Shown here: positions 3,208-11,814 of the stretch, piece after piece
Numbering within the stretch: position 1 is the first letter of the stretch
Layout: each line of letters opens with the position of its first letter
Source: a virus
DNA: 31,291 nucleotides
IMG/VR virus record: IMGVR_UViG_3300001341_000009
Span: 1 to 31,291 of that record
Strand: one strand, 5' to 3'
The notes under the pieces: generated by a model
Seen by the model: the letters and a program-made list of their open reading frames with translations, nothing else
The model's database searches: none
What the model was told of the DNA's origin: nothing
Translations under genes and position numbers: made by a program

Positions 3208-3873
3208 TCAGTCGAGTCGCCGCAGATGGAGCGTGTCGTTAGAGACTCGCCTCATCTGCGTCCGCACTGTTTCCAAGGGATCGCCGCCCCACTGGGTAGC
3301 CATTGCCTGTGCAATTCCTGGGTAGAACCGGGATCGGTCCTGACCCCGCGTGTCACTCGGGCTGGCGTACCAGATCCGGTGACGCTCCGTTTTTGGCAGC
3401 GTCGCCATGATGTCACTCACGTCCCACGTATCGCGAAGTTCGGTCAGGTTGCTGAGCGCAAGCCCTGTTTTCTTTGTCTCCGGGTGCCCGAAGCCGTGCG
3501 GCTGGACGTACTGAATCACGGCCCCCTTATCGCGCAGGACCGGGAAAATCACGCTAGCCGGGTTCTCAAGGCGGACACGCTTCGCCACCTTGCGAGCAGC
3601 TTCCCAGAGAGCCACAGTCCACGCTATCGCGTCGGTTCGTCTCTGAGTGCCGGCATGGTGCCGGTTGCCGCACACGGCCATGTGCGTACAGTCAGGGTGC
3701 AGAATAGCCAGATCCCAGCTGTGACCACTACGTAGCAGATTCATGATGTCGCCTCGGTAGTGCGGCCCAGGAGACTCGGACGGAAGAAGGTCACAGGACA
3801 TCGCCTGATGCCCAGCGCGGGTAAATGCGTCCCGCACTGTTCCTGAGAACTCGCATCCGACCAGCACTCTCAT
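3208..3873 (-). CDS. DNA methyltransferase-like protein (C5-cytosine MTase fold)
   Basis: 221 aa. The N-terminus MRVLVGCEFSGTVRDAF resembles the SAM-binding motif I of C5-cytosine methyltransferases (FxGxG-like, here CEFSG). It is followed by an acidic SCDLLPSE strand end and by HPDCTHMAVCG in the place of the PCQ catalytic loop. ENPAS at about residues 101-105 resembles the ENV motif. This matches phage proteins usually annotated as cytosine-methyltransferase-like. The Cys in PDCT could be the nucleophile, but the loop is not canonical, so the activity is inferred. It could protect phage DNA from host restriction. Confidence 0.65.
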   Translation of the reverse strand: MRVLVGCEFSGTVRDAFTRAGHQAMSCDLLPSESPGPHYRGDIMNLLRSGHSWDLAILHPDCTHMAVCGNRHHAGTQRRTDAIAWTVALWEAARKVAKRVRLENPASVIFPVLRDKGAVIQYVQPHGFGHPETKKTGLALSNLTELRDTWDVSDIMATLPKTERHRIWYASPSDTRGQDRSRFYPGIAQAMATQWGGDPLETVRTQMRRVSNDTLHLRRLD

Positions 3874-10479: not shown

Positions 10480-10556
10480 TGGCCAGTAGCTCAATCGGAT
10501 AGGGCAATGGGTTTCTACCCCATGCGTTGCAGGTTCGAGTCCTGTCTGGCCAGCCA
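10480..10556 (+). tRNA. tRNA-Arg(UCU), phage-encoded
   Basis: A full cloverleaf can be folded. The acceptor is TGGCCAG/CTGGCCA with discriminator G and encoded CCA. The D arm is GCTC/GGGC, with GGA in the loop supplying the A20 identity of arginine tRNAs. The anticodon arm is ATGGG-TTTCTAC-CCCAT with anticodon TCT, and the T arm is GCAGG-TTCGAGT-CCTGT. It would read AGA and AGG, rare in many GC-rich hosts. It lies between the CII-position gene and the replication initiator, with 27 bases to the latter's start. Confidence 0.94.
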
Positions 10557-10583: not shown

Positions 10584-11375
10584 GTGTACGGAAAGATATT
10601 CGACACGATCTACGACGGCACCCTGGTTGAGAGCTGGCAGGCGCTGGTCACGTTCCAGCAGATGATCGTGCTGGCCGATGCCGACGGGGTCATCGACATG
10701 ACCCCGAGGGCCATCGAGCGTCGAACGGGCATTCCACTGGAGGTCATTGAGGAGGGCATTCGAGTCCTTGAGCGACCTGACCCTGACTCTCGTACACCGG
10801 ATGACCAAGGTCGACGGATAGCCAGACTGGACGGCCATCGATCATGGGGCTGGTATCTCGTCAATCACGAAAAATACAGAAAACTTCAAGACTCAGAGAC
10901 AGTTAGAGAGCAAAACAGGGAACGGAAACGCCGCGAACGAGAGCGAAAAAGGGAGTCACAAGAAGGTCACGAACTGTCACGGTCAGTCACGGAAGGTCAC
11001 GCAAGTCACGAAAAGTCACGCCATACAGATACAGATACAGATACAGATACAGATACAAGAAAAAAGACTAGGTCATCTGGCGATGACCCATTCGGTCGAT
11101 GGTGGGTCATTTACCCGAAGAAGGTGAAGAAAAAGACCGCCAGGGAGATCTGGAAACGGAAGCGCCTTGACCGACTGACCGACCAACTGATTGCCGACGT
11201 GCAGAACCGACTGGCGAACGACCAGCGCTGGAAAGACGGTTTCGTGCCAGACCCAACGACCTACCTGAACCAGGAGCGCTGGGACGACGAGATCGCGCAA
11301 TCCACGAAAGTGGCCGCCAATTCGTTGGACGGCTTCGCGACGTTCGAGGAGGACAAATACCTTGGACAAAGTTGA
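10584..11375 (+). CDS. O-like replication initiator with C-terminal DnaT-like domain
   Basis: 263 aa from a GTG with CGGAG upstream. The N-terminal domain (about 1-100: YGKIFDTIYDGTLVESWQAL, TPRAIERRTGIPLEVIEEGI) is a winged-helix of the phage replication-organizer type. A very charged linker follows (RKRRERERKRES, then repeated TD). The C-terminus from FGRWWVIYPKKVKKKTAREIW to YLNQERWDDEI is the module seen in phage O/DnaT-like proteins. The linker DNA carries the GTCAC array and ATACAG repeats, so the protein probably binds inside its own gene, as lambda O does. It is followed by a P-like gene overlapping its end. Confidence 0.83.
   Translation: MYGKIFDTIYDGTLVESWQALVTFQQMIVLADADGVIDMTPRAIERRTGIPLEVIEEGIRVLERPDPDSRTPDDQGRRIARLDGHRSWGWYLVNHEKYRKLQDSETVREQNRERKRRERERKRESQEGHELSRSVTEGHASHEKSRHTDTDTDTDTDTRKKTRSSGDDPFGRWWVIYPKKVKKKTAREIWKRKRLDRLTDQLIADVQNRLANDQRWKDGFVPDPTTYLNQERWDDEIAQSTKVAANSLDGFATFEEDKYLGQS
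10955..11020 (+). repeat. Seven-copy GTCAC iteron array (candidate replication origin)
   Basis: GTCAC begins at 10955, 10966, 10976, 10986, 10996, 11005 and 11015; six copies continue as GTCACG. Spacing is 9-11 bp, about one helical turn. Because 10 bp is not a multiple of 3, the repeats fall in all three codon frames. Conservation is therefore on the DNA, not the protein. The array sits in the linker of the initiator gene, directly before AT-richer tandem repeats. Confidence 0.8.
11023..11058 (+). repeat. Hexamer tandem repeat (ATACAG)n, possible unwinding element
   Basis: Five exact copies of ATACAG plus one ATACAA encode alternating Thr-Asp in the initiator linker. An A-rich tract (AAGAAAAAAGACTA) follows. 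Lying next to the iterons, it is a reasonable duplex-unwinding element, though it could be a simple slipped-strand repeat. Confidence 0.7.
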
Positions 11376-11814
11376 GCGCGTGTTGACGACCATGCGGGGC
11401 TCTTACGTCGGCCGATTCAAGCTGACGCCAGACGAGGAACAGGCGTGGCGAGAGGGGATCGCGGGGTTCGATCCTCGCGTACTGGCAACGGCGACGAATC
11501 ACTTTCGTGCTGACCACCCTGACTGGCCATCGACGCTGATGGTGTTCCGGCGGTACTGCTTTGACCTGATCCGCAAACGGGACTCGGCCGATGACGCGTT
11601 GGCCCAGAAATACGAGCAGTGGGCGAAGGAAAACAACCTCGACGGCAAGAAGCCGGAGGAGACCGTTGAGCAGTTCCAGCGCCGGTTGGTGTGGCAGTCC
11701 GAGTGCCGCAAACGGGGCTGCTCGAGTGCGCAGTTGTCAGAAATTGCCGCGGCGAACAAGGCGCAGAATCGAAAAAACGAGCAGGCCAAGAAGGACTTAC
11801 TGCGTGGTGAGTGA
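11362..11814 (+). CDS. P-like helicase loader candidate
   Basis: 150 aa, TTG start overlapping the initiator's 3' end. The first part contains LTTMRGSYVGRFKLTPDEEQ, then FDPRVLATATNHFRADHPDW and PSTLMVFRRYC. Together these resemble the N-terminal helicase-loader region of phage replication P proteins (a W/F-P-s-l-x-x-F-x-x-x-C signature). The C-terminus is a charged coiled coil. Gene order O-like then P-like supports recruitment of the host DnaB helicase. It is shorter than lambda P, so part of the activity may differ. Confidence 0.65.
   Translation: MDKVERVLTTMRGSYVGRFKLTPDEEQAWREGIAGFDPRVLATATNHFRADHPDWPSTLMVFRRYCFDLIRKRDSADDALAQKYEQWAKENNLDGKKPEETVEQFQRRLVWQSECRKRGCSSAQLSEIAAANKAQNRKNEQAKKDLLRGE

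Follow-up and report, generated by a model that had tools for sequence, protein, structure and literature searches.

The replication origin of phage lambda lies in the middle of gene O, where direct repeats are followed by an AT-rich tract, between the regions for the DNA-binding N-terminus and the C-terminal domain; lambda has four such iterons and Stx phages six, each built as a 19-bp imperfect inverted repeat (PMC7466680). Here we analysed a viral DNA of 31,291 nucleotides (IMG/VR record IMGVR_UViG_3300001341_000009, positions 1 to 31,291; hereafter the window), in which a replication initiator gene carries an internal array of seven GTCAC words followed by a low-GC repeat tract. Sequence comparison makes it quite probable that this is an intragenic phage origin, in which the initiator recognises short phased iterons through a basic helix and the low-GC tract is opened or marked. 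The elements that carry this reading are the following (window coordinates).

10584..11375, + strand: replication initiator coding sequence, 263 amino acids, GTG start (PHROGs matches, AlphaFold2 (AF2) model)
10955..11019, + strand: seven GTCAC iterons, at 10955, 10966, 10976, 10986, 10996, 11005 and 11015 (exact word positions)
11023..11057, + strand: (ATACAG)5.8 period-6 tandem repeat tract, 100% identity, encoding alternating Asp-Thr
11021..11075, + strand: low-GC, A-rich stretch, 34.5% GC (window, 58%)

As in lambda, the array (10955-11019) sits inside the initiator gene (10584-11375) with an AT-rich tract directly beside the repeats. Unlike lambda, the window has 5-bp asymmetric words recurring once per helical turn rather than 19-bp imperfect inverted repeats, the probable reader is a basic helix, and the initiator had no Pfam match below E = 0.1, and so none to protein O. 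A preliminary description, made from the letters alone, had proposed a lambda-like layout with iterons unlike lambda's longer ones, and the comparison agrees with it on both counts; its term "O-like" is borne out as far as a phage replication initiator is concerned (phrog_9474, phrog_270), and not as a Pfam relation to O. The putative window origin is best read as working like the lambda origin, while falling outside the lambda type on iteron type and O homology.

Other described systems resemble the locus in part. Proteins annotated as RepA-like share the window initiator's C-terminal domain, but the similarity is limited to that region, and no phased words are described for the RepA-like prophage origins of mycobacteriophages. 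Plasmid iterons are about 17-22 bp long and usually lie outside the gene, and their initiators have two winged-helix domains; the window initiator, in contrast, has one winged helix in its model plus a basic helix, and 5-bp words. In such plasmids (RepA, TrfA, RepE), direct-repeat iterons lie next to an AT-rich opening zone, according to an excerpt of PMC4980987, and in mycobacteriophages Miko and Jeeves repA alone supports replication, the cis elements being presumed to lie within or beside the gene (PMC7157519). Geminivirus iterons, as an excerpt of PMC12548392 describes them, are words of 5-6 nt that differ even among closely related viruses and have to correspond to the cognate Rep. Their short, fast-changing words are like those found here, whereas geminiviruses are rolling-circle plant viruses with iterons upstream of the Rep gene and unrelated proteins.

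The phased array is under selection at the DNA level

The GTCAC copies follow one another at steps of 11, 10, 10, 10, 9 and 10 bp, exactly at the positions and 9-11 bp steps previously claimed, and their codon-frame offsets (2, 1, 2, 0, 1, 1, 2) use all three frames. Only GTCAC and a preferred following g are common to the copies. Since GTCAC is not enriched window-wide (63 matches on both strands versus 66 expected), the signal is the local cluster; no other pentamer in the window reached seven copies within 65 bp. In 20,000 synonymous redraws of the 25 codons, seven copies never arose and six arose only twice. This phasing, independent of frame and resistant to synonymous recoding, together with the same phasing in homologs collected blind to the motif (see below), shows that the array is under DNA-level selection, as the preliminary description had argued; the continuous initiator filament that it suggested is possible and would be geometrically reasonable. 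Strand bias of the array relative to the genes was discarded as evidence, because the reverse complement of GTCAC contains TGA and closes reverse frames. For that reason orientation was assessed in the GTCGC class, where reverse copies cost no stop codons, and direct orientation was preferred (33 GTCGC versus 5 GCGAC).

With four GTCAC copies spaced 10 bp apart as the search pattern, IMG/VR gave at least 120 stretches; the reversed word, used as control, gave 22 in the whole collection. Among the matches listed, whose loci are redundant, 181 of 213 clusters in GTCAC loci fell in open reading frames (ORFs) of 150 amino acids or more, versus 6 of 25 in the control, and in the 48 array-bearing ORFs scanned the commonest named families were replication initiation proteins, primosomal proteins, DnaD-like loaders and replisome organizers. 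Four-copy matches in bacterial genome contigs were excluded from the evidence; most are GC-rich repeats of the chromosome that do not belong to the initiator family.

Homologs of the C-terminal domain mostly lack an array, which at first appeared to refute the feature, but their N-termini differ; homologs were therefore collected by the N-terminal domain. This domain alone, without use of the motif, yielded 80 loci and 64 non-redundant sequences including the window (family 1). A significant 10-bp-phased array, defined as a phased linker word beyond synonymous resampling (p < 0.05), was present in the same linker in 42 of the 64, and pooled repeat lags were enriched 7.3-fold at 10, 6.2-fold at 11 and 6.9-fold at 20, in addition to multiples of 6 contributed by the tract. 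Each gene uses one word, all copies changing together, and the word varies between genes (GTCAC, GTAAC, GTCGC, GTCAAC, CTCAAC, GTCCAC, GTCAGC, GTTAGC, GTGGAC, GTAGAC and others), most fitting GTnnC or GTnnnC. Adjacent copies were spaced 9, 10 and 11 bp apart in 27, 107 and 34 cases, with few others; these counts are biased, as word choice already favoured steps of 9-11, and the lag spectrum gives a fairer picture. In several genes with GTAAC, steps of 11 and 10 alternate, which corresponds to 10.5 bp per turn. Related initiator genes, where the preliminary description had advised looking for GTCAC phasing, thus keep the phase and replace GTCAC as a whole word. Its proposal that homologs lacking phased GTCAC would speak against the feature is misleading for this reason, and would have rejected a real one.

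A second family showed no relation to the first when profiles of the two N-terminal domains were compared. Here 34 of 50 sequences had a significant array, an upper figure because a few significant scores come from the purine tract and not the word (L658; L numbers denote compared loci), and lag 10 was enriched 11.6-fold. Its words are GTCAC, G[AC]AAC, GTAAC and GTGAC, with the share of GTCAC biased by queries taken from GTCAC-bearing genes. Named phages with this layout are P7869 and Marin of Pseudomonas aeruginosa (GTCAC x4), and Cy-LDV1 pairs a STERSRAFRER helix with GCAAC/GAAAC words. In L012 and its relatives, as well as in P7869 and Marin (L686, L687), the same gene has another GTCAC array some 260 bp upstream of the first, where it encodes the winged helix-turn-helix (wHTH) domain.

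The repeats could alternatively reflect a low-complexity linker at the protein level (VTxCHxxSxx, DTDTDT) that expanded by tandem duplication in frame, the DNA itself playing no part. Linkers are indeed disordered in the models, and units of 30 and 21 nt occur in frame (18 copies in L527, for example); however, the 10-bp sub-period is not codon-commensurate, the phasing exceeds peptide-preserving resampling, the peptides change along with the DNA word, and in four family 1 homologs the tract is a reverse-complement, pyrimidine-rich one encoding a different peptide. We regard this explanation as very improbable.

The low-GC repeat tract beside the array

The ATACAG repeats and A-rich stretch reported to follow the array were recovered at the coordinates given above, and 11021-11075 contains the 50-mers with the lowest GC in the replication region (9.9 to 12.4 kb). 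Within the tract, Asp and Thr codons are all GAT and ACA, though GAC, ACG and ACC are commoner in the phage (chance about 2e-7). A period-6 tandem tract follows the array in 45 of 64 family 1 sequences (AAGCAG, ACAGAT and others) and a period-5 AGAGA tract in 42 of 48 from family 2, with mean tract GC below gene GC by 11 and 19 points, respectively. The tract is likely an opening or helicase-loading zone. Its type goes with the N-terminal family (L526-L605 period 6, L607-L685 period 5) and not with the iteron word, so the wHTH domain may be what reads it.

The array might instead be an initiator site for transcriptional autoregulation or replication control (handcuffing, incompatibility or partition-like clustering), with the origin proper elsewhere. 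Plasmid iterons often serve control too, and the second upstream array of one family would suit such a role, but the array lies inside the coding sequence, a good way downstream of any promoter, and the conserved low-GC repeat tract directly after it reproduces the plan of the lambda origin (PMC7466680). We consider a purely regulatory site unlikely and prefer an intragenic origin.

Tract form varies in some loci. In four members of family 1 (L534, L569, L573, L592) the tract is reverse-complement and pyrimidine-rich (CTGCTTCTGC, CTTCATCTTCAT), with a different peptide encoded. Initiators of the DESYVR/YTRKT type (L010, L014, L018, L111) have a TAGCC- or GTGCC-type short repeat after the GTCAC array, not an AGA-rich tract. 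A DnaA-trio-like reading of the tract was rejected by eye, as no consistent trio ran across the ACAGAT, GCAGAA and AGAGA tracts.

The iteron word is coupled to a basic helix of the initiator

Two parts of the protein precede the linker that the array encodes (residues numbered from the Tyr at 10587 as residue 1).

10587..10862, + strand: winged-helix domain, residues 1-92 (AF2 predicted local distance difference test (pLDDT) mostly 93-98; homologs at 31-73% identity)
10866..10970, + strand: one long helix, residues 94-128 (AF2 pLDDT about 97 at 111-120; covariation with the iteron word), with the basic core REQNRERKRRERERKR at residues 107-122 as proposed word-reading element, key positions 110, 114 and 117

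In both families the basic helix changes along with the word. GTCAC is paired with ERKRxQRER-like helices, GTAAC (for the majority of members in either family) with an N-x-[ED]-R-Q-x-x-[HFYW]-[RK] helix, GTCGC with a DRxRIAxKR helix and G[AC]AAC with a STERVRAFRER helix. Partial Mantel tests of word against helix given the wHTH domain returned r = 0.54 (family 1) and 0.75 (family 2), p = 0.0005 each; word against wHTH given the helix returned r = 0.05 and -0.01, not significant. L529 and L526, for instance, are 83% identical in the wHTH domain and use GTCAC and GTAAC, respectively. The C-terminal domain, on the other side of the array, was not significantly associated with the word, nor were the 12 residues before the helix in family 2, and the start of the same helix in family 1 gave a weaker, yet significant association. 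Positions 110, 114 and 117 alone yielded r = 0.53 (family 1) and 0.89 (family 2); they were chosen after seeing family 1, and the independent checks are family 2 and the helix search described below. Across families, permutation showed same-word pairs to be alike at these three positions (p = 1e-4), with no likeness at 112, 115, 116, 119 and 120 (p = 0.36). At position 117, His or an aromatic residue goes with a purine third base (9,1/0,12 in family 1; 20,0/3,23 in family 2). Trees built from the wHTH domain only require at least 3 (family 1) and at least 12 (family 2, whose tree is poorly resolved) third-base changes. These results show a coupling between the word and three positions of the helix (110, 114 and 117) that does not depend on the N- or C-terminal domain.

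Physical linkage could produce such an association on its own, if neighbouring DNA recombines together and another domain reads the word. L664, a family 2 protein, aligns with window initiator residues 108 to 234 at 35% identity and not before, and the model for family 2 likewise shows a long basic helix of its own (99-123) with a disordered linker after it. As the N-terminal domains show no relation, homology between the two families has its boundary at the basic helix, and the helix could move as one unit with the array and what follows. Against linkage alone, the C-terminal domain is linked on the other side and does not track the word, the residues just before the family 2 helix do not either, and the signal is confined to particular helix positions. 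We judge it a doubtful explanation, and favour reading of the word by the helix.

As a test of prediction, DNA encoding a DRxRIAxKR helix served as the query, and the array was left out of account. Of the 85 matches most were unrelated sequence, and all initiator-like matches with a phased array had GTCGC. Three of these loci had already been used and five were new (L711, L715 and the near-identical L691/L707/L757); L711 belongs to a wHTH subtype in which the other members compared mostly carry GTAAC, and L691/L707/L757 have a different N-terminus. One further locus, L695, is GC-rich with three copies and ambiguous.

On balance, we lean towards a swappable cassette, in which the basic helix and its cognate one-per-turn array of 5-6 bp words lie back to back in the gene, follow a residue-base code and move between unrelated N-terminal domains. 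Under this code, His or an aromatic residue at position 117 would specify a purine third base and Gln, Glu, Lys or Arg mostly C; Asn110 and Gln114 would often accompany GTAAC, and Asp110, Ile114 and Lys117 would accompany GTCGC. A parallel is offered by the bZIP basic region, a single basic helix with covarying positions i, i+4 and i+7 on one face. It serves as a lead only, with no homology claimed: the window helix, unlike bZIP, ends at residue 128 and gives way to a disordered linker without leucine heptads.

Several observations weigh against these interpretations. About one third of family 1 homologs have no significant exact-pentamer array, the words being degenerate or absent. Independent switch pairs on well-supported branches are few (2+3), though nearly always concordant; the code is violated by some residues (L539, L656, L665, L666); the sorting into word classes was done in part by eye; and linked inheritance contributes to the association, the helix and the array being neighbours.

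Initiator architecture, proposed mechanism and neighbouring observations

The initiator matched the PHROGs profiles phrog_9474 (E = 1.7e-21) and phrog_270 (E = 9.4e-18), both annotated "replication initiation protein" and covering residues 90-244, as well as phrog_9327 (E = 1.8e-15); weak matches to DnaD-like loaders (phrog_10469, 5e-4; phrog_1701, 6e-4) begin in the helix and linker. Judged by these profiles, the gene is a phage replication initiator. In the AF2 model, the iteron region encodes a disordered linker after the strongly basic helix, and a helical C-terminal domain follows at residues 168-216. A sequence search for a solved structure gave no match, and a fold search gave generic winged helices only, none at E <= 0.001. 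Two further features lie downstream of the tract.

11088..11285, + strand: C-terminal helical domain and conserved tail (common to many phage initiators with other N-termini; AF2 model)
11362..11814, + strand: next gene, 150 amino acids (position only)

Phased arrays are a general feature of initiator genes, and their word is coupled to the basic helix, which is the proposed reader. The long helix would read GTCAC in the major groove of each word, and several initiators would align on one face of the DNA, since the copies sit about one helical turn apart. Such an assembly may open or mark the adjacent low-GC tract, and the replicative helicase would be recruited there by the C-terminal domain together with a loader from host or phage. 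Direct binding by the helix, side-by-side assembly, tract melting, helicase loading by way of the C-terminal domain and origin activity itself are what we infer from these comparisons.

The origins of most temperate phages are unmapped. If the proposed scheme is right, sequence could show where the origins of many phages lie and in part predict the specificity of their initiators, and under the cassette reading the protein of an uncharacterised phage would disclose its origin word. Initiator-origin coevolution, incompatibility and module swapping would become directly testable, and the families would form a compact natural data set on DNA reading by one helix. No description of these arrays was found in the open full-text literature; subscription reviews lay outside that search, and novelty is provisional.

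The 150-amino-acid gene at 11362 is, by its position, a candidate for a lambda P-like helicase loader; it had no Pfam, PHROGs (E < 0.1) or NCBIfam match and no homolog among the loci compared. On the upstream side, a tRNA-Arg (TCT) gene at 10480-10556 directly precedes the initiator gene, whose start, judged from the sequence context, is most likely the GTG at 10584, with ggag upstream and just after the tRNA; the start chosen by the ORF caller, a TTG at 10527, falls inside the tRNA gene and was rejected.

A phased array was also seen in non-coding DNA. In Escherichia coli NZ_CP073589.1 (L690, about 3225-3280; also L075, L083 and L118), four GTGAC words, the reverse strand of GTCAC, recur at steps of about 10-11 bp at the end of a terminase-carrying prophage or element resembling a phage-inducible chromosomal island (PICI) beside phoQ, and the 501 bp around this array have matches in 1018 of 5426 E. 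coli genomes.
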